From Malus domestica (Eukaryota; Streptophyta; Magnoliopsida; Rosales; Rosaceae), in assembly GCF_042453785.1 (NCBI RefSeq), contig NC_091671.1:11664001-11728000 (forward strand): a DNA stretch of 64,000 bases, read 5' to 3'. Made by a program: the position numbers and the translations under genes. Below the pieces are notes generated by a model. That model saw only the letters and a program-made list of their open reading frames with translations, ran no database searches and had not been told where the DNA came from. Of this stretch, positions 6,086 through 54,000 are shown piece after piece. Numbering within the stretch: the first letter of the stretch is position 1; every line of letters begins with the position of its first letter.

Positions 6086-7795
6086 AGGAACTGGAGCTTG
6101 TTTTGAGAACAAGGTTATTGGATTTTTTTTTTTTTTAATTTTAATTTTTTAATTTTAATCTCCCTGGGATTGGAAGCTGATCCTGGAGTAATCTCTTATG
6201 ATTGAGCCAGAGAATCTAGTTTTGGGTTTAATTGGAAGAACGCTGACAGACATTTGGTTCCTGACGAGATGAAGCGTTAGATGTTGCACTGGGCATCCGA
6301 GGTAGAAGAAAGCGATACAAATATACAAGGCATCCAAATCGACCGCATTGTTACAAAACTTGCGATGGCACCAGGATTCTTCGTGTTCCTCCCGTTAACA
6401 ATCTGCAGGTCCGATGCTGGTATTGTACAGGAGATTGTGATTTGAATCCGAAAAATTGGGACGTGTCGGAGGAAACCCTGTCAAAGAAATAAAACATGGC
6501 TGCCTCGGCTCGGTTTTATAGTGACAAGCAATAGCCTGTAAATATTCACTCCGGCTTCAGTTTTTTTAAATAGATGGTCATTTTTTCGAAAATTGATAAT
6601 ACTGACTTTTTATTGGTGTGTCCATTACTGTTGGGGCATGACATTTGTATTAACTTATAGAGATCCATTTAAAGTACAGGGGATCGGCACTTTGTGCGTC
6701 GCGTCGCTCCGATGGCCGACGTTTTAAAGTCATGGTTGCTGCGAGATCATAGTAGAACGCTGACTTCTGGTGAGGCAACAGAGAAATTATACCAAAAAAA
6801 CTTTTATTATATGTTTTATTGTATTTGGAATGCAATTGAGTTTCATGTTCGGTTATTCCAACTTTATGCAATGTCATCGGATTTCATTTTGTTGTGTAAA
6901 AATCCGAGGGCTTTATGATATCCCCACAATTGGATGGAAATTCAAGGGTTTCAAGCTTGCGGCGCAAGTGATTCAGTCTAGCAGTATTGTTCTTCATTTG
7001 TAAGTAATAATTATAAGTTTGACAACTTAGACGGCTGGTTTGATCCCTAACTTATCTCCTTGGGATAATTTTTAGGCCCCCTAGGTCCAGCTAATTTTGA
7101 CTCCAGTTTTGGACGCAATGATATTTGCGGGGTGGATGGGCCGTCAGTAATTAGATATCAAACTCGCCATTTATAGGAGTTGGACTTACAAGTGGAGAAT
7201 AATACGAGTAGAGCGTTGTGCGAATTTGACTTGAGACCAAGAGAAAAATTTTCTTCTAAATAAATTTCTAGAAATTATGTGTGAGTTTTGTCAAATGTTA
7301 TAAATAAAATTTTCTTCTAAATGAACTCTAATATAGCAACGAACTAATGATTCAATTATATTTCCCTTCAATTTGTAGGATGGTTCTAATTCTAAATTTG
7401 GCTTTCTCCTCTTGACTGTAATTGTTTTTAATTTATCTGCATTTTGGAGTGAGCCTGGTAATTAGAAATATTTTTTCAATGTTTCAACTTATTGTTGTTA
7501 TCGTGGAACTAAAAGGATGTCGACAAAACCAAATAATGGTTTAACGATGTTCCTTTTCACTTGTTAGGTTTGATTTTCATAAAAGACGAATTTGAACTAT
7601 ATTATTGGTAGTTTATTTTGAAGTTTACCCTTTTTTTATGGTAGATAATAACGTTCGTTAAAAAAGATAACAAAAAATAGATGGAACTTGTAACAGAGAT
7701 AAGTCGGAATTTAGGGACGAACACACAATTCTTTTGAAGGAAGCAAACTATAAGGAAAAACAAAATCTTACTCAGCACTCGCTACCTCACTGAAG
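6086..7795. other. SIZ1 3' flank and AT-rich intergenic DNA
   Basis: The first few hundred bases after the SIZ1 stop are probably 3' UTR, including a T-rich run near 6121-6160. No conserved ORF, clear repeat boundary or RNA gene is visible. The segment just before 7796 is the 5' flank of PPR gene A; no convincing TATA box was picked out. Confidence 0.5.
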
Positions 7796-9616
7796 ATGAT
7801 GATGCTGGCAACAACGGCTGCTTCTTCCTCTTCTTTGCAGGTTGGTTGTGGCAGCAGCATCAGCAGCAGACTCAGACTTAGAGGTATGCTGCCTTGTCTT
7901 GTTCAATCTTCTTCTTCTTCTGTTGTTTTCGTAAGTAATTACTTGGCTTTGTTTCACTCTCGAGCTTCTAAATCGACCGAATCTAGAAACACCCAACAAC
8001 ACCAGTTTGTTAAAATCACTAATCTCGAGGATGCCCTTAATGTGTTCGACGAAATGCTTCAAAGGCGTCCTCTGCCTTCCGTCGTCCCTCTCAACCAAAT
8101 CTTGATTCAAGTTGCCAAGTTGAAACAGTATTCGGCAGTCATCTCCTTGAATAACCAAATGGTTGTGTCCGGAATTCGTCCTGATGTTTATACTCTAAAC
8201 ATTCTCATTAATTGCTTCTGCCATTTGCACCAAATCGGGTTCAGTTTATCTGTCTTCGGAAAATTCTTCAAATTGGGTTTTGCACCGGATGTCACGACCT
8301 ACAGCACTCTAATCAATGGCTTTGTTTGTGAGGGTAGAGAGGCTGAGGCAGCAGCACTTTTCAACGAAATGATGGAGGGAGGTAATTGCCAGCCGAATGT
8401 GGTTACTTTCAACACACTAGTAAAGGGCCATTGCTTGAAAGGTAACAACATTGAAGCTATCCAATTTCTTAAGAAGATGGAAGAAGGAGATTGCAAGCCT
8501 GACGTAGTTGCCTATAACACGGTCATTGACAGTCTTTGCAAGGATACTCTAGTTGTTGATGCACTGAAGCTCTTCTCAGAAATGACGAGTAAGGGTATTG
8601 CCCCAAATGTCATGACCTATACCTCTTTGATTCATGGAGTTTGCAAATTAGGGAAGTGGAAAGAAGCTACGAGATTGTTGAATGAAATGGTGGAGAAACA
8701 TATCTTTCCAAATGTGCGCACATTCAGTGTCTTGGTTGATACATTATGCAAAGAGGGGATGGTCCATGAAGCAAGGAGTGTGGTTGAAATGATGATCCAA
8801 AGAGATATTGAACCTAATATGGTTACTTACAACTCGCTTATGGATGGTTATTGTTTGCGAGGCGAAATGGACGAGGCGAAAAAAGTCTTTGATCTAATGC
8901 TTCACCTAGGCTGCATGGTTGATGCTCATAGTTATAGCATATTGATAAACGGCTATTGTAAGCTTAAAAGGATAGATGATGCCCAAATGCTTTTCCTGGA
9001 AATGTCTCATAAGGGCGTTGTTCAAGATACAGTTACTTATGGCACTCTTATGAATGGGTTTTGCAAGATGGGGAGAACACAAGATGCACAGAACTTGTTC
9101 TCTCAAATGCAAGCTAGTGGCCAACTTCCAAATGTTCAGATTTATAACATTTTGCTGGATGGCCTCTGTAAAAACCAACAATTTTCCAAGGCAGTTGAAT
9201 TGTTGGAAGAGATGGAGGAAAAGAAGTTGGATTTTAACATTGTAACTTATAATATTCTTATTGCAGGTTTGTGTAGAGCTGAAAAAGTTGAATACGTAAG
9301 GGATCTCTTTCTTAGTTTATCATCAAAGGGAATTCAACCTAATGCCAGGACGTATAATACAATGATTAGTGGATTTTGTAGTGGGGAGCTAACAAGTGAA
9401 GCAGAAAACTTGCTTAGAGAAATGGAAGAGAAAGGCTGTTCTCCAGATGGTTGCACGTACAACACAATTATCCGAGGGTTTATCAACGACAACGAGACAT
9501 CAAATGCAGTGAGGGTTATTCAAGAAATGGTGGAGAGGGGTTTTTCTGCAGATGCATCAACTACGGAGTTGATCGTTAATTCACCCGCTTTGTTGGCATT
9601 GATACAAAGATTGTGA
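7796..9616 (+). CDS. P-class PPR protein, restorer-of-fertility-like (copy A), intact
   Basis: Single-exon 606-residue ORF. The first ~70 residues are Ser/Ala/Arg-rich and acid-poor, like a mitochondrial targeting peptide, and include LALFHSRASKST. About 14 tandem 35-residue PPR motifs follow, plus a degenerate last one (motif starts such as PDVYTLN, PNVVTFN, PDVVAYN, PNVMTYT, PNMVTYN, PNARTYN, PDGCTYN). P-class PPRs bind organellar RNA, one repeat per base. This tandem intronless arrangement is typical of the Rf-like clade that processes mitochondrial transcripts. ATG at 7796 is the first of three in-frame ATGs and matches the start region of copies B and C. Copies B (15574) and C (23247) are close relatives. 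The organelle and RNA target are inferred. Confidence 0.93.
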   Translation: MMMLATTAASSSSLQVGCGSSISSRLRLRGMLPCLVQSSSSSVVFVSNYLALFHSRASKSTESRNTQQHQFVKITNLEDALNVFDEMLQRRPLPSVVPLNQILIQVAKLKQYSAVISLNNQMVVSGIRPDVYTLNILINCFCHLHQIGFSLSVFGKFFKLGFAPDVTTYSTLINGFVCEGREAEAAALFNEMMEGGNCQPNVVTFNTLVKGHCLKGNNIEAIQFLKKMEEGDCKPDVVAYNTVIDSLCKDTLVVDALKLFSEMTSKGIAPNVMTYTSLIHGVCKLGKWKEATRLLNEMVEKHIFPNVRTFSVLVDTLCKEGMVHEARSVVEMMIQRDIEPNMVTYNSLMDGYCLRGEMDEAKKVFDLMLHLGCMVDAHSYSILINGYCKLKRIDDAQMLFLEMSHKGVVQDTVTYGTLMNGFCKMGRTQDAQNLFSQMQASGQLPNVQIYNILLDGLCKNQQFSKAVELLEEMEEKKLDFNIVTYNILIAGLCRAEKVEYVRDLFLSLSSKGIQPNARTYNTMISGFCSGELTSEAENLLREMEEKGCSPDGCTYNTIIRGFINDNETSNAVRVIQEMVERGFSADASTTELIVNSPALLALIQRL

Positions 9617-11622: not shown

Positions 11623-11924
11623 TAAATGCATTGCATAATTGGCTATGCATTAACTTCATAAATATAATTTTTGGGTTGCTTCATACTTTCCCAAAAGTTA
11701 GCCTACTCTTTGATATTAGTTTTATTGCTGAAAATTTAAACAAATATGATTTAATAGTATTTTTTTTCATTTGTAAGTGAGAAGCTTTAGACTCGATTAT
11801 AGCTAAAGGTAAATTTGAACTATATTATTAGTAGCCCAAAATGATGTTATCTTCACTAAAGTGAGGAGGGAGTGGAGTTAGCCTTACAATGGAATAACAA
11901 TAATGTAATTCAAATTCGTCTTTG
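11623..11924. other. AT-rich spacer before an LTR element
   Basis: About 300 bp with no recognisable gene or repeat. It ends with the CTTTG target site (11920-11924) of the LTR retrotransposon. Confidence 0.5.
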
Positions 11925-12129
11925 TGTTAGGATGCTACATGGCATCATCTGGCATCAATTGTGATTGACAAGTGTACGGTAGATATTAGCTAGTTAGAGC
12001 TGTTAGAAGTGGGAGGTTAGTACTAATAGAAGCTTGTAAAGGAAGATAAGGAAGTTAAATGAAATGATATTGTTGTTCTGTTACTATCTCTCTGTGCAAT
12101 TGTAGAAGATGTGGAGCTAGGTTCTAACA
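11925..12129 (+). repeat. 5' LTR of the IDH-carrying element
   Basis: 205-bp direct repeat of 14443-14646, differing by a few substitutions and one base of length. It begins TGTTAG and ends AACA. Confidence 0.92.
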
Positions 12130-12301
12130 TTGGTATCACAGCCAAACTCAATCCTTCGACGTTGTATGTCGCGGCAAGCTTCGCGGAAGAATATGGAGTC
12201 TCGAGTTTCGAGTCTGGAGACGAGGATTGAAGAAGTCCAGCAATCGCAAGAGAAGGTTCAGGCAAATTTAGAGCTGATTATGGGGGCAATTACAAGCTCT
12301 G

Positions 12302-13588
12302 ATGGCAAGGGGTAATGGTGGATTTTTGGGGAATTCTGCAGCTACACCGACGCATCAGCCGTTCATCAAATCGACATCTCCTCTCTCTCGTGTGAAATCG
12401 AATGAAATTGTTCTCAAGCTTCAATTCTTCCACAAGGAAAAGGTTCAAGCCCGAGAGAAAAGAGATGAATTCTGGTCTCAATTTCGTCCAAGATACAAGC
12501 CCAAGACTCGTCCTGGTCTACGACCCATATTGAAGAAATTCAAGAAGGTGCATGACTACGACAAATACCACGAAGATGATTCTGCAAAGTTTCGTTCCAG
12601 TTCCAAATTTCAAGCAATTTTTGGGTTTTTTCGAAGTGAATTGGCTGGGAAGAATGAAAAGGTTTTCGATTTACTCAACAAGAAAGTTGAAGACACTGTG
12701 AAAAGTCCTCCATTTCTTGATTCTGATTGCATGAAATCCAAGATTCAAGCTTGCGTTCTGAGTTCTTCATCTCCTAACGAATTGGTTGCTGCGTTTAGCG
12801 ATAAATTCAATCAATTCAGGACGTCGCCTTCGTCTCATCGGGAATCTAACTGCAAGAACGACTTGGCCCAAGAATTCATTTTCATAATTTCCGTATCTGA
12901 TGATGGGTTCGTGAAAATTGATTCACTTGCACTCCAAGTGTTTGATGAAAGGTCACACTCAGCAGATTGTGATTTTCAGTTGGGCTATCACATGCCGATT
13001 TCTGACACCGGAGGTACACTTCGTAGGTTCTTTACTTCGAATGTTCAAATTAAAGATGCTCATAGTTCTAAATTTCTTGTTTGTAATGGTGAAGTCATGA
13101 AAAATGGTACTATTGTGCATTTGAAGCTTGGTTTCCATGAGTTAATTTGTGACAAGGGTGGGACAATTAGCCAGAGGCTCTTTAATTCAAAGTCCAAGAA
13201 TACAGATTGTGCTCGAGGTTTTGATTGTTCCAAGGTGGTCAAATGTGAGGTAAGTTTTGATTATTCCATGATCATTGATGGGGAGTATGCTGGTATTTTG
13301 GGATTGCATCATTTAGTAGCTTGTATGGACAAGAATAGAAAACATGAAAGAAAGTTCACTCTCTCCAGATTTGGAAATGGTTGCTGTATTGTTTGCTGTG
13401 TTGTTTGCTATGTTATTCTCGATCATGACTACTGCAAGGGCATTCGGGATAAGGGTGGTGGCTCAAAATTCAGGTATAATGTAGCAAATGGTACTGTTTT
13501 TTGGAGAACCTATTATCTGCAGAAATGTTTTCCGTCTTGTTCCAGATTGGACAATGCCAATATGTATTGGGGAACATGTTTTTGGTGA
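12302..13588 (+). CDS. Unrecognised 428-residue ORF inside the LTR element
   Basis: ATG-started ORF in the gag position. Just upstream in another frame (12150-12315) is a coiled-coil piece with SSLETRIEEVQQSQEK, which resembles the N terminus of Ty3/gypsy gag proteins. The ORF protein is Lys/Arg-rich early (FRPRYKPKTRPG), then Cys-bearing. It contains two similar segments (LGYHMPISDTGGTLRRFF and LGFHELICDKGGTISQRLF), suggesting an internal duplication. I recognise no family. The last ~35 codons run out of frame into the isocitrate dehydrogenase insert. Whether it is expressed is unknown. Confidence 0.45.
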   Translation: MARGNGGFLGNSAATPTHQPFIKSTSPLSRVKSNEIVLKLQFFHKEKVQAREKRDEFWSQFRPRYKPKTRPGLRPILKKFKKVHDYDKYHEDDSAKFRSSSKFQAIFGFFRSELAGKNEKVFDLLNKKVEDTVKSPPFLDSDCMKSKIQACVLSSSSPNELVAAFSDKFNQFRTSPSSHRESNCKNDLAQEFIFIISVSDDGFVKIDSLALQVFDERSHSADCDFQLGYHMPISDTGGTLRRFFTSNVQIKDAHSSKFLVCNGEVMKNGTIVHLKLGFHELICDKGGTISQRLFNSKSKNTDCARGFDCSKVVKCEVSFDYSMIIDGEYAGILGLHHLVACMDKNRKHERKFTLSRFGNGCCIVCCVVCYVILDHDYCKGIRDKGGGSKFRYNVANGTVFWRTYYLQKCFPSCSRLDNANMYWGTCFW

Positions 13589-14045
13589 TCAGTACCGAGC
13601 AACTGATGCAATCATAGAAGGACCTGGAAAACTTAAATTGGTTTTTGTAACTGATGGGCCAACGAGATGGCAGAGTGGGAGGTTTACAAATTTATTGGTG
13701 CTGGAGGCACAGCATTGTCCATGTATAACATGGATGAGTCTATCCGTGCTTTTGCTGAGGCTTCCATGAACACTGCCTACCAGAAACGTGCTTTTGCTGA
13801 GGCTTCCATGAACACTGCCTACCAGAAACGTGCTTTTGCTGAGGCTTCCATGAACACTGCCTACCAGAAAAAGTGGCCATTTTATCTTAGCACTAAAAAT
13901 ACTATTTCTGAAGAAATATGATGGAAGGTTCAAGGACATCTTCCAGGAAGTTTATGAAGCTCATTGGAGATCAAGATATGAGCATCGTCTTATTGACGAC
14001 ATGGTTGTTTATGCTCTCAAAAGTGCAGGAGGTTATGTGGTACTC
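13475..14045 (+). pseudogene. Captured NADP-isocitrate dehydrogenase cDNA fragment
   Basis: Across three frames the sequence encodes the middle of plant NADP-dependent isocitrate dehydrogenase: [71 protein letters not shown] and [20 protein letters not shown]. At least three frameshifts and a deletion before YEHRLIDD kill it. No introns interrupt the ~570 bp, so the source was spliced RNA. A 42-bp unit is triplicated inside (13745-13870). It lies between the LTRs in sense, so it was picked up by the element rather than landing beside it. Confidence 0.88.
13745..13870 (+). repeat. 42-bp in-frame triplication in the captured IDH
   Basis: Three back-to-back identical 42-bp units, each encoding [14 protein letters not shown]. 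Normal isocitrate dehydrogenase has one. Confidence 0.95.
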
Positions 14046-14442
14046 TGCTACTCTGCTACTGCTAAGCTTTGTGTGAACTTTGATGTTGCATTCATTGGTA
14101 CAAAGTACATGCTAAAGCTGGAAAATGGGTGTAGTGTTTCAATGGCAAATGATTGGGTCAATACCATTACTCATCTTTTTGGGAGGGTGTAATGTGGAGT
14201 CAAATTTTAGGCAGTGAGCTACTTTGCTAATTTTAGGCAGTGAGCTATTTTGCTACTCTAGAGAAGCAATGCTGTTGCGACTGAAGTGAGTTCAATGACA
14301 GAACAGTTCAGGGGTGATGTTACTGAGGAGTGGTATCATGATTTGAAGCTCCAGTTTTCATAACTTGTTGATCTTTGAGTTGTTTTGTTTAATTGTAGTT
14401 CTGCACTTTGTTTCCGTAAGTTTTGTTTTAAGGGGGAGGTAT

Positions 14443-14646
14443 TGTTAGGATGCTACATGGCATCATCTGGCATCATCTGTGATTGACAAGTGTACGGTAG
14501 ATATTAGCTAGTTAGAGCTGTTAGAAGTGGGAGGTTAGTACTAATAGAAGCTTGTAAAGGAAGATAAGGAAGTTAATGAAATGATGTTGTTGTTCTGTTA
14601 CTATCTCTCTGTGCAATTGTAGAAGATGTGGAGCTAGGTTCTAACA
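14443..14646 (+). repeat. 3' LTR of the IDH-carrying element
   Basis: Direct repeat of 11925-12129, preceded by the purine tract and followed by the CTTTG target copy. Confidence 0.92.
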
Positions 14647-14651
14647 CTTTG

Positions 14652-14963: not shown

Positions 14964-15459
14964 GAGTAAACTATCGATTTGCCCCCTGAACTATCACCCA
15001 ACTTTCGATTTGCCCCCTGAACTTTTTAATTGGAAAATTAAGGACTTAAACTAATTTTTTTGGCCGATTTGCCCCATGCTGTTAATTTTTCATTCATTCC
15101 ATCCAAATTTCTGTTAAATGGAAGCATATGCACAACATGTGTGGGTAGTTCGGTCACTTCATTCTTTAAAATAATTGAAAACCTTAGATTTCTAAAATAT
15201 AAACCTATGCAAATATGTGTGATTCTATAGCTTTTCTGTCTGAAGGTCTAGTGAAATGACGCTTTTGTCCACAAATGAGAGTTACGTGGTTTGCACATGA
15301 TAAGAGTTAACGTTAATTTGGATGAAATTTATGAAAAACTAACGTTGATTTTCAGTTGGCCAAAAAAATTAGTTTAAGTCCTTAATTTTCCAATTAAAAA
15401 GTTCAGGGGGCAAATCGAAAGTTGGGTGATAGTTCAGGGGGCAAATCGACAGTTTACTC
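14964..15459. mobile_element. Mutator-like MITE with ~100-bp inverted repeats
   Basis: A 496-bp element between 9-bp target duplications TATTTGAAA (14955-14963, 15460-15468). The ends are nearly perfect inverted repeats of about 100 bp, starting GAGTAAACTATCGATTTGCC and containing two GATTTGCCCCCTGAAC motifs per arm. The interior is non-coding. The 9-bp duplication and long TIRs fit Mutator-like elements. It ends about 115 bp upstream of PPR-B and so forms part of its promoter region. Confidence 0.88.
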
Positions 15460-15573
15460 TATTTGAAATCCCTATGTTCCTTGAAATTATATGTGAGTTT
15501 TCCTTCGTATATCATCCTCAGCAAAAGTTTTCCGAAAGGAGGATTTACGCACGGCCTCACTGACTCACTAAAG

Positions 15574-17379
15574 ATGATGCGGGCAACAACAGCTGCTGCT
15601 GCTTCTTTTTCGAAGGTTGGTTATGGCAGCAGCAGCAGCAGCACCAGAGGTATGCCTCCTTGTCTTCTTCAAGCTTCTTCTGTTGTTATTTTCTTCAACA
15701 ATTACTTGGCTTTGTTTCACTCTCGACCTTCTAAATCGACCGAATCTAAAAACACCCAACACCACCAGCTTTTGAAAATCAATAATGTTGAGGATGCTCT
15801 CAATGTGTTCGACGAAATGCTTCAAAGGCGTCCTCGGCCTTCCGTTGTCCCTTTCAACCAAGTCTTGACTCAACTTGCCAAGTTGAAACATTACTCGGCA
15901 GTCATCTCCTTGAATAACCAAATGGTTATGTCCGGAATTCGTCCTGATGTTTATACTTTAAACATTATCATTAATTGCTTTTGCCATTTGCACCAAATGG
16001 GGTTTGGTTTGTCAGTCTTGGGAAACTTCTTCAAATTGGGTTTTGAACCAGATGTCACGACCTGCAACACTCTAATCAACGGCTTTCTTCTTGAGGATAG
16101 AGAGGCTAAGGCAGCAGCACTTTTCAACAAAATGATGGAGGGAGGTAATTGCAAGCCGAATCTGTTTACTTTCAACACACTACTTAAGGGCCATTGCTTG
16201 AAAGGTAACAACATTGGAGCTATCCAATTGCTTAAGAAGATGGAAGAAGGAGATTGCAAGCCTGACATAGTTGCCTATAGCACGGTCATTGACAGTCTTT
16301 GCAAGGATACTCTACTTGTTGATGCACTGAAGCTCTTCTCAGAAATGACGAGTAAGGGTATTGCCCCAGATGTCATGACCTATACCTCTTTGATTCATGG
16401 AGTTTGCAAATTAGGGAATTGGAAAGAAGCTACAAGATTGCTGAATGAAATGGTGAGTAAACATATCTTTCCAAATGTGTGCACCTTCAGTGTTTTGGTT
16501 GATACATATTGTAAAGAGGGGATGGTCCAGGAAGCAAGGAGCTTGGTCAAAATGATGACGCAAGGGGATATAGCACCCGATACAATTACGTACAATTCGC
16601 TTATAGATGGTTACTGTTTGCGAGGAGAAATGGATGAGGCGAAAAAGGTTTTCGAAATAATGCTTAGCAAAGGCTGCATGGTTGATGCTCGTACTTACAA
16701 CATATTGATAAATGGCTATTGTAAGCGTAAAAGGATAGATGATGCTCGGATGACTTTTCTAGAAATGTCTCGTCAGGGAGTTGTTCCAAATACGGTTACT
16801 TATAGCACTCTTATTGATGCGTTTTGCAAGATGGGGAGAACACAAGATGCACAAAACTTGTTCTCTCAAATGCAAGCTTGTGGCCAACTTCCAAACATTC
16901 AAACGTATAATATTTTATTGGATGGCCTTTGTAAAAACCAACAATTTCCCAAGGCAGTTGAATTGTTGGAAGAGATGGAGGGAAAGAAGTTGGATTTTAA
17001 TATTGTAACTTACAATGTTCTTATTGAAGGTTTGTGCAGAGCTGAAAAAATTGAATGTGCATGGGATCTCTTTCGTAGTTTATCATCAAAAGGAATTCAA
17101 CCTAATGTCAGGACATATAATGTAATGATCAGTGGACTTTGCAATGGGGGACTTACATGTGAAGCAGCAAACTTGCTTAGAGAAATGGAAAGGAGAGATT
17201 GTTCTCCAGATGGTTGCACGTACAACACAATTATCCGTGGGTTATTCAATAACAACGAGACATCAAGGGTTATGAGACTTATTCAAGAAATGGTGGAGAG
17301 GGGTTTTTCTGCAGATGCATCAACTGTGGAGTTGGTCGTTAATTCACCCGTAATGTTGGCATTGATAGAAAAATCATGA
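15574..17379 (+). CDS. P-class PPR protein, restorer-of-fertility-like (copy B), intact
   Basis: Single-exon 601-residue ORF closely related to copy A, with the same targeting-type N terminus (LALFHSRPSKSTESK) and the same 14 PPR motifs plus a partial one. The frame stays open upstream to 15463, but that codon is TTG within the MITE target flank; ATG at 15574 aligns with the start of copies A and C. Differences from A sit partly at PPR code positions (for example PDTITYN against PNMVTYN), so RNA preference may differ. It has no p44 piece downstream. Probable role: mitochondrial RNA binding or processing, inferred from the family. Confidence 0.92.
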   Translation: MMRATTAAAASFSKVGYGSSSSSTRGMPPCLLQASSVVIFFNNYLALFHSRPSKSTESKNTQHHQLLKINNVEDALNVFDEMLQRRPRPSVVPFNQVLTQLAKLKHYSAVISLNNQMVMSGIRPDVYTLNIIINCFCHLHQMGFGLSVLGNFFKLGFEPDVTTCNTLINGFLLEDREAKAAALFNKMMEGGNCKPNLFTFNTLLKGHCLKGNNIGAIQLLKKMEEGDCKPDIVAYSTVIDSLCKDTLLVDALKLFSEMTSKGIAPDVMTYTSLIHGVCKLGNWKEATRLLNEMVSKHIFPNVCTFSVLVDTYCKEGMVQEARSLVKMMTQGDIAPDTITYNSLIDGYCLRGEMDEAKKVFEIMLSKGCMVDARTYNILINGYCKRKRIDDARMTFLEMSRQGVVPNTVTYSTLIDAFCKMGRTQDAQNLFSQMQACGQLPNIQTYNILLDGLCKNQQFPKAVELLEEMEGKKLDFNIVTYNVLIEGLCRAEKIECAWDLFRSLSSKGIQPNVRTYNVMISGLCNGGLTCEAANLLREMERRDCSPDGCTYNTIIRGLFNNNETSRVMRLIQEMVERGFSADASTVELVVNSPVMLALIEKS

Positions 17380-23246: not shown

Positions 23247-25297
23247 ATGCAGAAGATGATGCAGGCAACGATTGCTGCTTCTTCTTCTTCTTCTTTGAAG
23301 GTTGGTTATGGCAGCAGCAGCACCACCGGCACACTCAGACCCAGAGTTATGCTGCCTTGTCTTGTTCAATCTTCTTCTGTTGTTGTTTTCTTCAACAATT
23401 ACTTGGCTTTGTTTCACTTTCGAGCTTCTAAATTGACTGAATCTAGAAGCACCTAACAACACCAGCTTGTGAAAATCACTAATGTGGAGGATGCTCTCAG
23501 TGTGTTCGACGAATGCTTCAAAGGCGTCATCTGCCTTCCGTTGTCCTTTTCACTCAAAATTTTGGGTCAGCTTGCCAAGTTGAAGCATTACTCGACAGTC
23601 ATCTCCTTGAATAACCAAATGGTTGTGTTAGGATGAATGTTGTGTCAGGAATTCGTCCCAATGTTTATACTCTAAACATTATCATTCATTACTTTTGCCA
23701 TATGCACCAAATGGGGTTTAGCTTGTCTATATTGGGAGAATTCTTCAAATTGGGTTTTGAACCTGATGTCACAACCTTCAACACTCTAATCAACAACTTT
23801 CTTCTTGAGGATAAAGAGGCTGAGGCAGCAGCACTTTTCAACAAATGGGGGGAGGTGATTGCAAGCCGAATCTGTTTACTTTCAACACACTACTTAAGGG
23901 CCATTGCTTGTGTTGATGCACAAAATCAGTGAGGACTTTGGTACAACAGAAATGTTAAGTTTTTGACCTTCACTAGATTGTTTCGGTCACTAGTATGAAT
24001 AAGTATGTAAATGGATAGGGACAGGGAAGCAAACACAAGATGTATGTGGTTCACCCAGATTGGCTACGTCCACGGAGTAGAGGAGTTCTCATTAATTGTG
24101 AAGGGTTTACACAAGTACATAGGTTCAAGCTCTCCTTTAGTGAGTACTAGTGAATTATTTAGTACAAATGACATTAGAAAATATTGTGAAAGAATGATAT
24201 CTATTTATAGAAGAGAGTTTTTAGTTTCATTCTGACATTGACACGTGTCGTGTTGTGATTAGCTTCTGATGTTGACACATGTCGCGCTATGATTTGCTTC
24301 TGACGTTGACACGTGTTGCGCAGTGATTGGCCTCCTGGTTAGAGGGAAACTCTTCTGGGTCTTTGATAGTATAACGTTGACCGGTGCTCAGTAGTTTCAT
24401 GATTGGTCAAGTATGGTGCAAACATCTTGAAAGGTAACAACATTGGAGCTATCCAATTGCTTAAGAAGATAGAAGAAGGAGATTGCAAGCCTGACGTAGT
24501 TGCCTATAGCACGGTCATTGACAGTCTTTGCAAGGTTACTCTAGTTGTTGATGCATTGAAGCTCTTCTCAGAAATGACGAGTAAGGGTATTGCCCCAGAT
24601 GTCTTGACCTAATCAAAGAGTTTGCAAATTAGGGAATTGGAAAGAAGCTACAAGATTGTTGAATGAAATGGTGAGTAAACATATCTTTCCAGATGTGTGC
24701 ACCTTCAGTGTTTTGGTTGATACATATTGTAAAGAGGGGATGGTCCAGGAAGCAAGGAGCGTGGTTGAAATGATGACGCAAGGGAATATAGCACCCAATA
24801 CAATTACGTACACTTCACTTATAGATGGTTACTGTTTGCGAGGAGAAATGGACGAGGCTAAAAGGGTTTTTGAAGTAATGCTTAGCAAGGGCAGCATCGT
24901 TGGTGATTGTAGCTATTACGTATTGATAAACGGCTATTGTAAGCGTCAAAGGATAGATGATGCTCAGATGATTATTTTGGAAATGTCTTATAAGGGGGTT
25001 GTTCCGGATACAGTTACTAATAGTACTCTTATTGATGGGTTTTGCAAGATGGGGAGAACACAAGATGCACAAAACTTGTTCTATAAAATGCAAGCTTGTG
25101 GCCAACTTCCAGACATTCAAACTTATTCTATTTTATTGCATGGCATGTGTGCAAACCAACAATTTTCCAAGGCAGTTGAATTGTTGGAAGAGATGGAGGG
25201 AAAGAAGTTGGATTTTGGTATTGTAATTTACAATATTCTTATTGAAGGTTTGTGCAAAGCTGAAAAGGTTGAATATGCATGGGACTGTTTAACTTAA
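23247..25297 (+). pseudogene. PPR gene copy C, broken
   Basis: Collinear with copies A and B but disabled in several independent ways: a TAA at 23454-23456 after LTESRST, frameshifts near 23510 and 23560, a stop and small duplication near 23634, a frameshift near 23850, a solo LTR at 23911-24424, a stop with a deletion at 24610, and a 3' deletion that ends the frame at 25297 inside the twelfth repeat. Intact stretches encode PPR motifs such as PDVTTFN, PDVVAYS, PDVCTFS and PNTITYT. The downstream sequence joins spacer that in copy A lies ~460 bp further on. It cannot make a full PPR protein. Confidence 0.93.
23911..24424 (-). mobile_element. Solo LTR of the Tat-like family inside PPR copy C
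   Basis: 514 bp that is a reverse-complement relative of the 521-bp LTRs at 31100-31620 and 39495-40015. It begins TGTTGATGCACAAAATCAG and ends TTGGTCAAGTATGGTGCAAA then CA. Flanks GCTTG and TCTTG are a 5-bp target duplication with one difference, and the PPR reading resumes right after. It shares the repeated ACACGTGTC-type motifs and a CTATTTATAG box. It is clearly older than the intact element, judging by its many differences. Confidence 0.9.
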
Positions 25298-31099: not shown

Positions 31100-31620
31100 T
31101 GTTTGTACCATACTTGACCAATCCCGAAACTACCGAGCACCGGCCAACGCTATACTGTCAAGGACCCAGAAGAGTTCCCCTCCGACCAGGAGGCCAATCA
31201 CTACTCGACACGTGTCAAGATTAGAAGCCAATCAGAGCGCAGCACGTGTCAACATCAAGAACCAATCATAACATGACACATGTCAATGTGACAAAGCTAC
31301 AAGTTTTTCTATAAATAGGGGTCATTCCCCCACAATATTGCCTAATGCCATTTTGTGTTAAATCATTCACAAGAACTCACTAAATTGAGAGCTTGATCCT
31401 TTGTACTTGTGTAAGCCCTTCACTACTAATAAGAACTCCTCTACTCCGTGGACGTAGCCAATCTGGGTGAACCACGTACATCCTGTGTTTGCTTCTCTGT
31501 CTCTATTCATTTACGTACTTATCCTCACTAGTGACTGAAGCAACCAAGCAACCAAGCGAAGGTCACAAAACCTGACACTTTCTGTTGTACCAAAGTCTTC
31601 GCTGATTTTGTGCATCAACA
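31100..31620 (+). repeat. 5' LTR of the Tat-like element
   Basis: 521 bp, begins TGTTTGTACCATACTTGACC and ends GTGCATCAACA. Identical by eye to 39495-40015. Confidence 0.95.
31205..31320 (+). promoter_or_regulatory. LTR promoter: repeated G-box-like motifs and TATA box
   Basis: The U3 part contains three spaced units of CCAATCA followed by an ACACGTGTCA-type palindrome: GACACGTGTC at 31207-31216, GCACGTGTC at 31242-31250 and GACACATGTC at 31275-31284. A strong TATA box CTATAAATAG follows at 31310-31319. CACGTG is the plant G-box/ABRE core bound by bZIP and bHLH factors. The same layout is in the 3' LTR (TATA 39704-39713) and, diverged, in the solo LTR at 23911. Stress or ABA responsiveness is inference. 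Confidence 0.75.
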
Positions 31621-31727
31621 TTTGGCGCCGTCTGTGGGAAACGACACTTATTCCTACTCTCTTCAGCTGTGTCAAGCTGGTTTCTATCATTCGTACACTT
31701 TCTTTTGATCAAGCATCCCTCTCCAAC

Positions 31728-33422
31728 ATGGGAAGCGAAGGAAGCCACAGCACACAGAATGACACCCCCCTTGCACATAGTGCGAAACAACGAAAGAAGG
31801 AAGGAAAACGAGTTCTTCTTCAAGCTAAAGTCGATGAGTTGGAAGCTCAGAACAACAAGATAGCAATGAGGAATGAGGTCCTCCAGGAGCAATATGAGAA
31901 GCTCTTCGAGACACTCCACGAAGCTAGGCAAGCTCAGACACGCGAGCTTGTTGCCCCCGTGGAAGTCAACCATCAACTGGGTGCCCTCCAACATGGAGGG
32001 TCACATGCATTCGACATAGATATCCCTGATAGGGAACAGATTACCCCTCGACTTGATAATCAACATGAGGCTTCTCTTAACCTAGTTGCTTCGACCCGAA
32101 CCATGAGAAGTGGAGAGAGACACCTCTTTGCTGAAGGGGCAGAAAGATTGAAAGCCGTCTTTCGCGATTGTCGGGATTTCCTGAAGCAACGTCGAGAGAA
32201 TTCCATCCATATAAGCTCAAAGATTAATGACCCAAGGATTTCTGAGAGACTCGGTCCCCTGCCACGGCCCAAGCCGGCCACCAATTTGGGGAAGGGGCAA
32301 CAAGTCCCAGAGAGACATGAGGGTACAGGGGACTCAGAGGTGTTCCGACAGACATACCCTGGAAGCCAGTACAGCGAGTCCAGGGAAAAATCACATGCCC
32401 TTGATCAAACCTTCCTAATTCCAATAGAAGATGGAGATTTACGAAAGAAAGCTCCAGTGACACATAACTCCACTCAGGACCCCCTTGTCCTACAACTTCT
32501 TGAGGAAGTAAACAAGTTGAAGGCTGAACGTCAGGCTGAAATACCTGACTGGAACCAACCCAGGCCTGGCCCTCTTACAAGGAGGATCCTCAACACCCCC
32601 CTTCAAGCAAAGACAAAGCAAAAGCTTGGCTTGCAACTTTATACTGGAAAAGAGGACCCGATTGAGCACCTTAACCTCTTTGAATCCACCATGGCATACC
32701 GGATGCACACCGACGAAGAGCGATGTCTTCTCTTCCCCTCCACCCTCTCTAGTGGAGCTCTAAATTGGTATTGTCGTCTTACACCTGAGACGATAGACTC
32801 ATTTGAGGAATTGAGGAAACTATTTGTTTCCCAACACATTTTCCAAACCGATCGCTTGCACTCTACAGATGACTTGTACACTATCCGCCAGAAGCCAGAC
32901 GAGTCATTAAGTATGTATGTTGGCCGCTTCAGCCATGAATACTCCCGGTGTGCCGAGGCAGACGACAAGACTGCCCTCAAAGCCTTCACGGCAGGCCTAC
33001 GTGATTGTTTCTTTAAATACATGATCAATGCCAATACTTGGAAGACTTACTCTGAGGTGATGGCGCAGGCTTATAACCATGCCTCCGCCGAGGCAAAGAC
33101 ATATCAGGAGAAACCCCCTACAACCATCCTTTATCAACAAGTGAGAGGTGGAAGCCAGACTCACCTAAATGAGAAGACCTCGACTTTCCAAACAGCAGTG
33201 GCACCTCCCCATGCCTTGCATAATGCTTCACCGAATCAACAGACATATCAATTTCAAGGCAAGAGGAAGGATTTCCATCCTCACCACTCTCCTTTCAGTA
33301 AAAAGAGTAAGGGACACTATCCCGATAACCAAGGGTATCGCCACAATAGCGCTCGCCCCCAGGCAGTCAATGCAGTGGGTCAAACCCGCGTCAAGGGTAT
33401 CGCCACAATAGCGAGGTTTTAG
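31728..33422 (+). CDS. Tat-like gag protein
   Basis: 564 residues from ATG at 31728 (the frame is open earlier from the LTR end but lacks an ATG there). N-terminal Lys/Glu-rich coiled coil (KVDELEAQNNKIAMRNEVLQ). Retrotransposon gag domain in the middle to C-terminal half: LGLQLYTGKEDPIEHLNLFE, SSGALNWYCRLTP, FEELRKLFVSQHI, QKPDESLSMYVGRFSHEY. Gag packages element RNA into particles. No CCHC zinc knuckle is visible before the stop. The C-terminal end crosses the deletion junction that removed protease and RT, marked by a 21-bp direct repeat (33331-33351 and 33393-33413). Confidence 0.88.
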   Translation: MGSEGSHSTQNDTPLAHSAKQRKKEGKRVLLQAKVDELEAQNNKIAMRNEVLQEQYEKLFETLHEARQAQTRELVAPVEVNHQLGALQHGGSHAFDIDIPDREQITPRLDNQHEASLNLVASTRTMRSGERHLFAEGAERLKAVFRDCRDFLKQRRENSIHISSKINDPRISERLGPLPRPKPATNLGKGQQVPERHEGTGDSEVFRQTYPGSQYSESREKSHALDQTFLIPIEDGDLRKKAPVTHNSTQDPLVLQLLEEVNKLKAERQAEIPDWNQPRPGPLTRRILNTPLQAKTKQKLGLQLYTGKEDPIEHLNLFESTMAYRMHTDEERCLLFPSTLSSGALNWYCRLTPETIDSFEELRKLFVSQHIFQTDRLHSTDDLYTIRQKPDESLSMYVGRFSHEYSRCAEADDKTALKAFTAGLRDCFFKYMINANTWKTYSEVMAQAYNHASAEAKTYQEKPPTTILYQQVRGGSQTHLNEKTSTFQTAVAPPHALHNASPNQQTYQFQGKRKDFHPHHSPFSKKSKGHYPDNQGYRHNSARPQAVNAVGQTRVKGIATIARF

Positions 33423-33423
33423 C

Positions 33424-34527
33424 CTGCCATACTTAAGGTGTCTTACGCCTGCCGAGGCGGAAATCGTCCTTCGGGAAATACATGAGGGAGTCTGTGGAGA
33501 TCATGCTGGATCTCGGTCCCTAGCACACAAGACTTTTCGCCAAGGATATTACTGGCCAACACTCCACCAGGATGCCATCAAAGTATCCCGCTCATGTGAC
33601 AAATGTCAACGATATGCGGCTATTCCTCATTCCCCTCCAGAGCCTCTTACTCCTATGATCAGCCCTTGGCCCTTCGCCCAGTGGGGACTTGATTTGATCG
33701 GCCCAATGCCGGCAGGGAAGGGCAAAGTCTGTTACGCAGTCGTTGCAATGGACTACTTCACAAAGTGGGCCGAAGTAGAACCCTTGGCAACCATTACTGA
33801 GGCAAAGATAGAAGACTTCGTGTGGAAGAACATCCTTTGTAGATTCGGCATTCCCAATGCGATAGTCACTGACAATGGGCGACAGTTTGACAACAAGAAG
33901 TTCAGGTTGTTCTGCTCTAAGTTCAACATCAACTTATGCTTTGCCTCTCCAGCTCATCCCCAGTCTAATGGACAAGTTGAGGCCATCAACAAAATAATCA
34001 AGCGCACTTTGAAAACCAGCTTGGACAAAGCTAAAGGCTGTTGGCCAGAATTTGTACCCCAAGTTATTTGGTCATATCGCACTTCATATCGGACTTCAAC
34101 AGAAGAAACTCCATTCTCACTTGCCTTTGGCACAGAGGCGGTTGTCCCTGTTGAGCTCGAGCAAGCAACATTCCGAGTCCAGAACTACATTCAAAGTGAA
34201 AATGACAAACAACTCACCCTCAACTTGGATTTAGTCGAGGAACACAGAAACCAAGCTCACTTGAGGAATGTCGCCTACAAGCAGCGCATCTCCAACTATT
34301 ATGACTCTAGGGTCAAGCCTCGTTCTTTCAAAATAGGAGACTGGGTCTTAAAGAAAAGATTACTCTGCGACAGAGTCCCGAGTGAAGGCACACTTAATCC
34401 AAACTGGGATGGACCGTATGAAGTCATTGGCATCAGTCGCCCTGGCTCTTACACACTTAGAAGCTCCGATGGCAAGACCCTTGGCCTTCCATGGAACGCT
34501 GATCACTTGAAGTACTACTACAAATAG
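33424..34527 (+). CDS. Tat-like integrase (remnant of pol)
   Basis: Open frame, +1 relative to gag, starting at the deletion junction. The HHCC zinc domain is intact (IHEGVCGDHAG then SCDKCQRYA). The catalytic core shows WGLDLIGPMP, IVTDNGRQFD and HPQSNGQVEAINKIIK, supplying the DDE residues. A GPYEVIGISRPGSYTL-type C-terminal segment follows and the ORF ends LKYYYK. Integrase inserts element DNA into chromosomes. There is no start codon of its own near the zinc domain (first ATG at 33655), so production would need frameshifting from gag. All three catalytic residues are present. Confidence 0.85.
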   Translation: MPYLRCLTPAEAEIVLREIHEGVCGDHAGSRSLAHKTFRQGYYWPTLHQDAIKVSRSCDKCQRYAAIPHSPPEPLTPMISPWPFAQWGLDLIGPMPAGKGKVCYAVVAMDYFTKWAEVEPLATITEAKIEDFVWKNILCRFGIPNAIVTDNGRQFDNKKFRLFCSKFNINLCFASPAHPQSNGQVEAINKIIKRTLKTSLDKAKGCWPEFVPQVIWSYRTSYRTSTEETPFSLAFGTEAVVPVELEQATFRVQNYIQSENDKQLTLNLDLVEEHRNQAHLRNVAYKQRISNYYDSRVKPRSFKIGDWVLKKRLLCDRVPSEGTLNPNWDGPYEVIGISRPGSYTLRSSDGKTLGLPWNADHLKYYYK

Positions 34528-50851: not shown

Positions 50852-51040
50852 TTATTCATTAATATTAGGTTTTATTATTCCATATTATTTTTTTAATTAC
50901 TTAAATTTTTACAATCATTTTCTTTACTTCATATTGTATTCTTCTGTAGAATAACTTTATTATTTAGGTTCTGTAGAATAACTTTATTATGTAATTCTTT
51001 TGTCTAATTTTCATGAAAAATAAATGTAGGTACGTTTAAG

Positions 51041-54000
51041 ATGTCTAGTGGAGCTAGTAAACGTGATCCAGCTTGGGAACATGGCTACCCAATAGACGGA
51101 AACAAACATGGCACAATTTGCAAATATTGTGGTCGGGTAATGAAGAGTGGTGGAGTGACACGACTTAAGTACCATCTTAGTGGATTAGATCCAGCAAAAA
51201 ATGTCCAACGATGCGATAATGTCCCCCCAGAAGTGAAGGCATTCATCAGCACATTATTAAAAAATAAAAAACAGCAGAAGGAAAAGATGACACAAGGAAT
51301 GGAAAATATTCGAGCTGGGCTACGGGGAGAAGTCTATGGCCAAGCGGTTGACAGTGATGATGATGACGATGAGGACGAATGTGATGATGACATGGGACCT
51401 GAAGAACGACGCAGTTTGAAACAAGCATTACGTGCCTCCAAACAGTCAGCATGGGAAAGAGAACACCTTCATAAAATTCCTAATAGGGGACAAGGTTCCG
51501 GGACAAGTGGTGGTGCACAAATGAGACGGGGTGGCAGTCTTAGAGAATCACAACCAACACCACCAATAGCCCCAAGTTTATATAAGTCATCCAACGCACG
51601 TCAAAATAGTGTTTGGAGTTATTTCAAGGGAGGTAATGTGAAGGAGGGAATGGGGCGTCTAATTAGCAAGTTCTTTATCTATGAAAATGTCTCTGCTGCG
51701 AAGGCATCATCACATCATTTCAAAAATATGGTAGTGGGATGTCAACAGGCCGGTGTTGGAGTACAACCTCCCACTCCCTATGAGATAAGAAACAAATATT
51801 TGGATATGGAGTATTTTGACATTGGCGAGTATGTTAACAAGTTGAGGTCAAAGTGGGAAACTAATGGTTGCACAATCATGTGTGACGGATGGACCGGCCC
51901 GACCAGATTATCTATCATCAACTTCATGGTATACTCCAAGGGAAAGACAATTTTTTTGAAGTCTGTTGATGCTTCAGACCATATAAAGAATTACAAGTAT
52001 ATTTACAAATTATTGAGGGATGTAATCATGGAGGTGGGAGAGCATAATGTTGTCCAAGTCGTGACCGACAACGGTTCTGCATTTGTCAAAGCTGGAAAAA
52101 AGTTAATGAAGCATCATAATGTGTTTTGGACATCATGTGCAGCACATTGTATTGATCTTATGTTTGAGGCAATGGGGAAGAGAGAGAATGTTGCTACTGT
52201 GGTCAAAAGAGCTAGAACGATCACAAATTATATTTACAATCACGGTTGGTTGTTGGCAAAGATGCGTGAATTTTGCAGAGGAGAAATTATTCGTCCAGCT
52301 ACCACTCGATTCGCCACCAACTATATTGCATTAAACAGCCTACTCAAGAAGAAAGCAGGGTTGAAGCAACTATTCACTAGTGACGATTGGGCCAACCACA
52401 ATTTCAGCCGCTCAAATACAGGTCGTATGGTGGAAAGTATAGTGCTTGATCATGCTTTTTGGAGTCAAACAGAACATGTGTGTCAAGTGTTTGAACCTCT
52501 TTACAAAGTTTTACGGATCGTTGACACAGAAGTGTATCCTACTATGGGGGCAGTATATGAGTTGATGCGTGTAGTGAAGGATGAATTGGAAAGAAAACAT
52601 GGTGCAAGGTGGGTCGTAAAAATAATTGAAGACCGATGGTATAAAACATTATACCACGATTTGCATGCAGCAGGTATAAATTATGTCATAATTTGCAATT
52701 CATTTCTTTAGTTGCATAAGTATTATTTATCTTATTAGAGTATGTGTTTCTTTGAACAGCATATTATTTGAATCCCCGATACCAATACAGACCCGGTGTT
52801 GGAGATGATGGTAACCTTATACGTGCTGTACATAATGTATACTCTAAATTAGACCCTGCATCACCAGCAGTTGGCCAATTTGGAAATGAGGTACACAATT
52901 ACTTAAATTATAATAATTACTTTGTTGGATTAAACTAACACAATTTATTGTATTCAGCTAACATGGTTTAAAGATGCAAGAAGAACATTTGGAGAACCAA
53001 CATCAGTTGCTACTCGAACAAATATGTCTCCTAGTGAGTATAAACATATTTCACTATAAGTTTATAATAGAATTTGTTGGAGTTATTAGGCTTATCAACA
53101 TTATTTTTCATTGTAGCTGAATGGTGGATCATGTATGGGACCGATGCACCAACTGTGAGAAAGTTAGCAATAAAAGTATTATCACAAACAGCTTCCTCAT
53201 CTGCTTGTGAAAGAAATTGGAGCACATTTGCACTCATACACACAAAGCAAAGAAATAAGTTGGCTCATAGTAGCTTGGAAAAATTAGTTTATTGCTACTA
53301 CAACATGAAGCTTCAAATTCGAGATAAGGAAGCAGAAATCGATCATGTCGACCGTGGTGACCCACTAGATGTGTTTGATATTGTTGGTGAAGATGATGAT
53401 ACGGAGGGTAACCAACTTTTTCAATGGATTAGACCTCTTCATTTAGATGATGATGAAGGCAACCCAGCTCCCAGAGTTGCTGAAGAAGCACGTAATGAAG
53501 GGATAAATGTAGAAAGAGTATTAGAGGAGGAGGTGGAATCTAGCAGCGCTGACTCTTTCGAAGAACTTTTGCACCCAACACCAAGCAACACTGGAATTCC
53601 ACATTTTTCCAATCCTACACAACCACAACATCGTGCTGATACTAATGATAGCTCTAGTACAAGATCAGGAGACTCACCTACCACCGGAGGTGGGAATGAT
53701 GAAGGACATAGTGGAGCTGGAGGTAGTGGAGCTGGAGGTAGTGGTGGTGGATATGGAAACTATTATGGACCACCACCTCCCGGATATATGAGCCCCTTCA
53801 CTGGTGAGGCAAACTTCACGCATGCAACATAGAATGATGACCATGGCAGTAGGCGGGCAGGACCAGGAATTGGTGCCATAGGGAAGGACTATACTCGCAG
53901 AGAAAGAGGCAAAGGGATTTTGTCAAGTCAAGAAGATGACTCGTTATCTAGAACTTCAGACTTTGTTGGATTGGGAAGTAGTAACTATGGTTATACTCAT

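Follow-up and report, generated by a model that had tools for sequence, protein, structure and literature searches.

The locus at positions 11925-14646 of the window (the whole 64,000-nucleotide stretch of Malus domestica DNA that was analysed) raises the question of how an intron-free piece of an isocitrate dehydrogenase (ICDH) gene came to lie between two long terminal repeats (LTRs). The element opens with a 5′ LTR of 205 bp with TG...CA ends (11925-12129) and closes with a 3′ LTR of 204 bp (14443-14646); both were delimited by LTR comparison and lie, as do all internal features given below, on the plus strand. The two repeats differ by 3 mismatches over 204 aligned positions and by 1 gap column; the sequence-only reading had called them exact, which they are not, but they are nearly identical. 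The further landmarks named in that reading were all recovered: perfect 5-bp target copies CTTTG, read in the sequence on both sides (11920-11924 and 14647-14651), a primer binding site-like TGGTATCACAGCC (12131-12143), which we take to be a match to initiator-Met tRNA, and a polypurine tract (14430-14438), the latter two located by reading and adjoining the LTRs.

The internal region of 2.3 kb starts with a remnant of a gag 5′ end (12193-12340), recognised through similarity to the gag-pol element L021. ORF reading reveals an open frame of 436 codons (12278-13588), which covers a family-specific region without any Pfam match and runs into the ICDH slice. A Pfam run on the three sense frames of the internal region (E up to 1) found no protease, reverse transcriptase or integrase, and returned one weak ICDH match and one match at chance level. 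Having LTRs with target copies, a primer site and a purine tract, and no pol domains, the window element is a non-autonomous LTR retrotransposon. The TRIM class, in which a non-coding internal domain spans roughly 100-300 bp, does not fit the 2.3-kb internal region with its 436-codon frame. Helitrons and Pack-MULEs, expected to retain host introns and to have DNA-transposon ends, do not agree with the absence of introns and with LTR ends that have a target site duplication. L021 is about 80% identical to element positions 1-417 (from the LTR to about the gag remnant) and encodes Retrotrans_gag, RVT_1, RNase H, rve and Chromo domains in separate open pieces. The LTR and gag start of the window element, which itself lacks these domains, thus appear to derive from the Ty3/gypsy chromovirus lineage, and L021 probably supplied the family with its LTR and supplies packaging and enzymes. 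A search of a plasmid collection with the element gave no similar DNA.

ICDH homology extends over positions 13474-14038 in sense orientation, from an apparent host exon start, as determined by alignment to the two host genes from which the exon map was made, L019 (C5) and L020 (C10). Against L020 the slice crosses six exon junctions without any intron, and L019 agrees; the claim of about 570 bp of intron-free sense ICDH is hereby borne out. In L020 an AG precedes all eight placed exons and a GT follows seven of them. The same gene (C10:33.70 Mb) has one exon without a following GT and another whose length differs from that in the element, and it may be degenerating. The window slice is without about 98 bp in the first two placed exons and a further 22 bp beyond, carries three tandem copies (13745-13870) of a 42-bp unit present once in the host gene, and does not keep a constant reading frame throughout.

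Copies with and without ICDH are present elsewhere in the genome (651 Mb searched in 19 contigs, all copy counts being lower bounds). Three further loci, L009, L010 and L015, are complete elements with LTRs and target site duplications and hold ICDH at the same joint as the window copy. Their duplications are TGCGT, TGGAT and CTATC, their LTR mismatches 0/161, 0/161 and 1/161, and their element frames remain open into ICDH for 541, 526 and 564 codons, respectively; Pfam Iso_dh scores for the first two (22.8 and 23.0 bits) lie below the curated cut-off of 27. These three retain ICDH parts absent from the window copy and are without parts that it retains, so that a single, longer capture is the probable ancestor of all four. 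Since the four stand at four different target sites, transposition continued after the capture. A rate of 1.3e-8 per site and year would put the age of the window insertion at about 0.6 My, with the other three being more recent. The assignment of the whole slot tail of L009 and L010 to ICDH was rejected, as most of it is family sequence and little of the terminal ICDH exon remains. That a spliced ICDH message was transduced, as proposed from the sequence alone, is strongly supported by an intron-free insert, bounded by LTRs and target copies, in four elements at four target sites. What that proposal had held to speak against it, namely host introns, an insert outside the LTR unit or a lack of similar copies, was not seen; the comparisons it had suggested, with host exon boundaries and with the rest of the genome, gave the exon start and the three additional elements.

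The joint itself is shared far beyond ICDH. In the alignment of copies the family sequence stops at ...GGCTCAAAATTC(A/T)G, and different sequences follow; in the window, the conserved linker end GGGCATTCGGGATAAGGGTGGTGGCTCAAAATTC (13438-13471), found by the genome pattern search, is followed by an AG (13472-13473, from the alignment of copies) immediately 5′ of the joint. A slightly degenerate form of GGGCATTCGGGATAAGGGTGGTGGCTCAAAATTC, searched with up to 3 mismatches, occurs at 27 places in the genome, and its reversed control at none. Host-gene-like sequence of eight kinds follows the linker at 20 of the 27: IST1-like (5), ICDH (4), myosin-like (3), CBBY-like (2), ARID (2), EPSP-synthase-like (2), receptor kinase (1) and MAP3K-like (1). 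Family sequence follows in six uncaptured copies (L036, L037, L039, L043, L045 and L046), and one copy (L038) has a deletion. Pfam E-values of captured pieces reach 2.6e-30 for the kinase, 4.2e-15 for ARID, 7.9e-29 for EPSP synthase and 2.8e-41 for Ist1. Ist1 was found by Pfam in L049 only, its four IST1-like companions being identified by eye; the myosin-like label depends on matches below the cut-off in L055 and L047, with none in L048; and the names CBBY-like and MAP3K-like, for which Pfam gave no match, are tentative. All eight kinds among the 27 have the host frame in continuation of the element frame, judged for the myosin-like pieces from a weak Pfam match and for the CBBY-like and MAP3K-like ones from the presumed protein. 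Outside the 27, L014 carries PPR repeats behind the linker (1.1e-35), in a frame other than that of the linker. A NUP98-like sequence was seen by eye 5′ of the linker; Pfam found nothing in ten stretches upstream of the linker.

Linkers differ between subfamilies while the position of the joint is constant. The AG before the joint is absent in the five IST1-like copies, and TG takes its place in three ICDH copies and in one CBBY-like copy. Target site duplications were tested in ten elements, among them the four ICDH and two ARID ones, and each has a perfect 5-bp copy pair; the test covered loci at which both ends could be placed, with L022, which has an LTR pair, outside it, and L011, L014, L056 and L059 among the loci with one end or none in the examined DNA. 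The gene-bearing elements measured are 2.4-4.0 kb long.

The host side of the joints was compared in six donors, namely ICDH, ARID, CBBY-like, EPSP-like, MAP3K-like and receptor kinase, with the IST1-like, myosin-like and L060-mosaic donors outside the comparison. Five of the six captures start at what appears to be an exon boundary of the host, called from an AG and the edge of homology. The ICDH donor reads ...TTATCGTAG/GTACAATG (the slash marks the joint), the window copy TTCAG/GTATAATG and the other three copies TTCTG/GTACAATG. The ARID donor ...TTTGTGTAG/GATTCCTACTG corresponds to TTCAG/GATTCCTACTG in L034, and the CBBY-like donor ...AATCTTTCAG/GAAGAGTGC to TTCAG/GAAGAGCGC in L042, with L033 reading TTCTG. 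The EPSP-like donor ...GCAATATACAG/GGATGGG is matched by the capture TTCAG/GGATGAA, and the MAP3K-like donor ...CCTATGGCAG/GGAACC by TTCAG/GGAACC. An exact exon start would be hit by chance about once in 80 for each donor (mean length 81.5 nt over the eight placed ICDH exons). Beyond ICDH, the donors match in separate exon blocks (ARID 4, CBBY-like 7, EPSP-like 3, MAP3K-like 5). The receptor-kinase capture was rejected as an exon-exact joint, the host sequence placing its start within an exon, after TTCTTCTGCTGCTAG; a cryptic acceptor or a short shared sequence could account for it. The CBBY-like host genes form a tandem cluster at C10:35.36-35.42 Mb, with the donors of one capture. Away from the linker matches, a CBBY-like piece at L066 (C13:13.88 Mb) crosses an exon junction without an intron and is perhaps another retrocopy.

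Copies without a captured gene display what the joint looks like when empty. Four of the six (L036, L037, L039 and L045) read CAG/GTATAT, which matches a 5′ splice site, and the remaining two read CAA/GTATAT (L046) and CTA/GTATAC (L043); the site is not unusually strong, as 6 of 201 GT sites in L036 match equally well. From the GT at the joint, L036 contains a GT...AG segment of 393 bp that ends in a pyrimidine-rich ...TTATTCTTTACCATCTTAG. L012 (target site duplication CTAAT) and L038 are without this segment at those boundaries. Such an absence is what intron loss by way of an RNA intermediate would leave behind, and it could also be a deletion between two AG dinucleotides; the two copies look like one subfamily and may represent one event.

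On the right-hand side, a return to L036-like sequence, or its persistence, is visible in 9 of the 13 copies compared. Counted in L036 positions, the right joints fall at 19 (L033 and L042, CBBY-like), at 167 (L030) and 188 (L029 and L032) for ICDH, at 316 (L034, ARID), at 401 (L041, ARID and kinase) and at 417 (L031, the window copy). L039 keeps the first 77 bases of L036-like sequence and resumes late; in L035, L040, L050 and L053 no return was found within the 1.5 kb examined. Separately, L039 (C9:26.35 Mb) has a glycosyltransferase-like piece joined further downstream, away from the fixed joint. In the window, family sequence 3′ of the slot with 91% identity to L036 (14075-14160) lies just beyond the candidate 3′ splice site of L036. 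The elements thus have a fixed joint on the left and a variable one on the right. Of the six resumption points, four fall within the 393-bp segment, which an unspliced RNA would retain, and two just beyond it.

Taken as a whole, these joints make it likely that a non-autonomous, Ty3/gypsy-derived family repeatedly gains spliced host messages at one fixed place, through splicing combined with template switching. The linker end AAATTCAG/GT would act as the 5′ splice site: a transcript starting in the 5′ LTR would be spliced from the linker end onto the 3′ splice site of a host gene, the host exon being reached by read-through in cis or possibly in trans, and in the resulting RNA AAATTCAG would be followed directly by a host exon or by TAAAAATGATG. 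The chimaeric RNA would then be packaged together with ordinary element RNA, and reverse transcriptase, having started on the ordinary RNA in its 3′ part, would switch to the chimaeric one at little or no homology. In the product the left joint would be precise and the right joint random, host introns would be absent, and the new element could multiply and capture again. Retroviruses are thought to transduce genes by this route. The standing evidence for it here consists of DNA joints, from which we infer splicing of the element RNA. No element pieces were seen in the 7 kb examined around each of the two ICDH donor genes, and the cis read-through step is without a fossil near either. Less easily fitted to the splice model are the receptor-kinase start inside an exon, the copies that have no AG at the joint and the two empty joints that do not read CAG/GT.

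Part of the evidence speaks for template switching alone, in which a strong pause or structure at the linker end would make reverse transcriptase leave the element RNA and copy any co-packaged host mRNA, with no splicing of the element RNA. At the right joint of ICDH the terminal ICDH exon has the motif GGGAAGA, noticed by reading, in common with the family sequence; short shared sequence within exons also seems to lie at the kinase start and at the boundary between ARID and kinase, and the captures examined are in sense. A pause, however, sets the element side of the joint and not the host side, where five of the six donors start at an apparent exon boundary, and a spliced mRNA would presumably offer the polymerase no obvious mark there. 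Switching alone is thus judged distinctly unlikely, and splicing followed by switching is preferred.

Kinase sequence lies directly behind the linker in L035, and it also follows ARID in L041 and the MAP3K-like piece in L050. This shows that elements with one gene received or kept another, and that some fusions arose otherwise than by new capture at the linker. The linker is moreover present in at least two LTR families. At L060, the locus of L049 (3490-7472; C10:8.47 Mb), it lies within different LTRs (286 bp compared, 10 mismatches) with the duplication GGGTT, and is followed by one frame of 500 codons, stops read as X, in which Ist1, Kinesin and ARMT1-like score above the curated Pfam cut-off, and ECH_2 and RsmB-F below. 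At L047 (locus of L061) the linker lies inside an open frame of 725 codons, with SHMT above the cut-off and myosin SH3 and Sec7-like below; no LTR pair was found at L061 in the 9.9 kb examined. The recurring kinase, the linker in the second LTR family and the middle part of L015, which is unlike that of L009 and L010, could all stem from a few early fusions later swapped by recombination in the linker, the joint being only the edge of homology. Swapping moves fused genes, but it does not make several fusions at the same base with exon starts, nor does it explain why subfamily linkers differ at an unchanged joint position, and much shuffling after few captures is considered rather unlikely as the main account. 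The multi-gene content of L049/L060 and L047/L061 also resembles that of elements which capture genes at the DNA level, as Helitrons or Pack-MULEs would. Such a capture, or an unrelated insertion into the window element alone, is nevertheless highly improbable: the six junctions of the window slice are free of introns, other donors match exon by exon, the ends are LTRs with 5-bp duplications, and the ICDH insertion is common to four elements.

Beyond repeated capture by splicing and switching, it is possible, though doubtful, that the lineage evolved a working exon trap, with a 5′ splice site of fixed phase at the end of a conserved linker, a frame that tends to stay open, exons added repeatedly in frame and several genes strung together; the IST1, kinesin and ARMT1-like matches of L049/L060, in one frame with stops, would be an example, and the chimaeric proteins or RNAs may benefit the element. 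Pairwise dN/dS of the element frame lies between 0.23 and 0.89 (54 of the 55 pairs gave a value; L029/L030 0.59, the window against L009 0.89), which is no demonstration of present function. In a rough neutral simulation, with branch lengths chosen by hand and for copies picked for being open, a length of 0.035 gave a mean of 1.5 stops with 68 of 300 runs stop-free, 0.13 gave 5.1-5.5 stops with 2 to 4 of 300 and 0.25 gave 8.4-8.6 with 0 of 300; what this says of the open frames is only suggestive.

Plant LTR elements can transduce host mRNA, with maize Bs1 as the classic case. The parallel to Bs1 drawn by the sequence-only reading is fair in kind and too small in scale, as eight kinds of host gene stand at the same joint. 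A review describes Bs1 as an LTR element with segments of three host genes that gave a chimaeric gene (PMC13317346). Intron-free host sequence inside LTRs, in sense, is found here too, whereas the present case involves many elements, one splice-site-like joint, eight host-gene kinds and a linker that occurs in at least two LTR families. Soybean TRIMs (GmaRetroS15 and others), as far as the accessible text goes, hold exons only, with fragments of up to three genes per element, and several post-capture copies have LTRs and 5-bp duplications; they measure 1,172-1,449 bp, against 2.4-4.0 kb for the gene-bearing elements here, and the accessible account makes no mention of a shared joint, an exon-exact start or an in-frame fusion (PMC4717578). 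One survey shows gene capture by LTR elements to be frequent, with figures of 672 and 1,343 genes; its available text describes no family-level capture site or splice mechanism and uses “intron” 0 times and “exon” once (PMC3726574).

A literature search over titles and the starts of abstracts, with most subscription journals outside it, returned no report of this family or of a shared capture joint; exon capture by LTR elements is known already, and a shared capture joint with many genes would be the new part. In the retroviral model, oncogene transduction proceeds through read-through, splicing and recombination and leaves a precise 5′ joint, a free 3′ joint and no introns. The joints here match this expected signature, with apparent host exon starts in five of six donors; unlike the retroviral case, a plant LTR family is involved and one joint is reused by standing copies. 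Host-gene pick-up by LTR elements has so far been argued mostly from single cases, and many fusions at one base, with donors in the same genome, make the mechanism readable from exon starts on the left and from the spread of the right-hand joints. Should the splice-site model be true, plants have a standing source of RNA-made in-frame exon fusions comparable to retroviral transduction, and with it a natural experiment on which messages get caught and how often, and on translation of fused frames or small RNAs against the donors.

The window element sits within a cluster of PPR genes, perhaps restorer-of-fertility-like; three PPR frames surround it at 7754-9613, 15433-17376 and 24608-25294, with 13, 13 and 5 PPR_2 stretches, respectively. 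Elsewhere in the window, gag and integrase frames from another LTR element occupy positions 31539-34524, and pieces of a hAT-type transposase (DUF659, BED finger and dimerisation domain) lie at 51017-53829.
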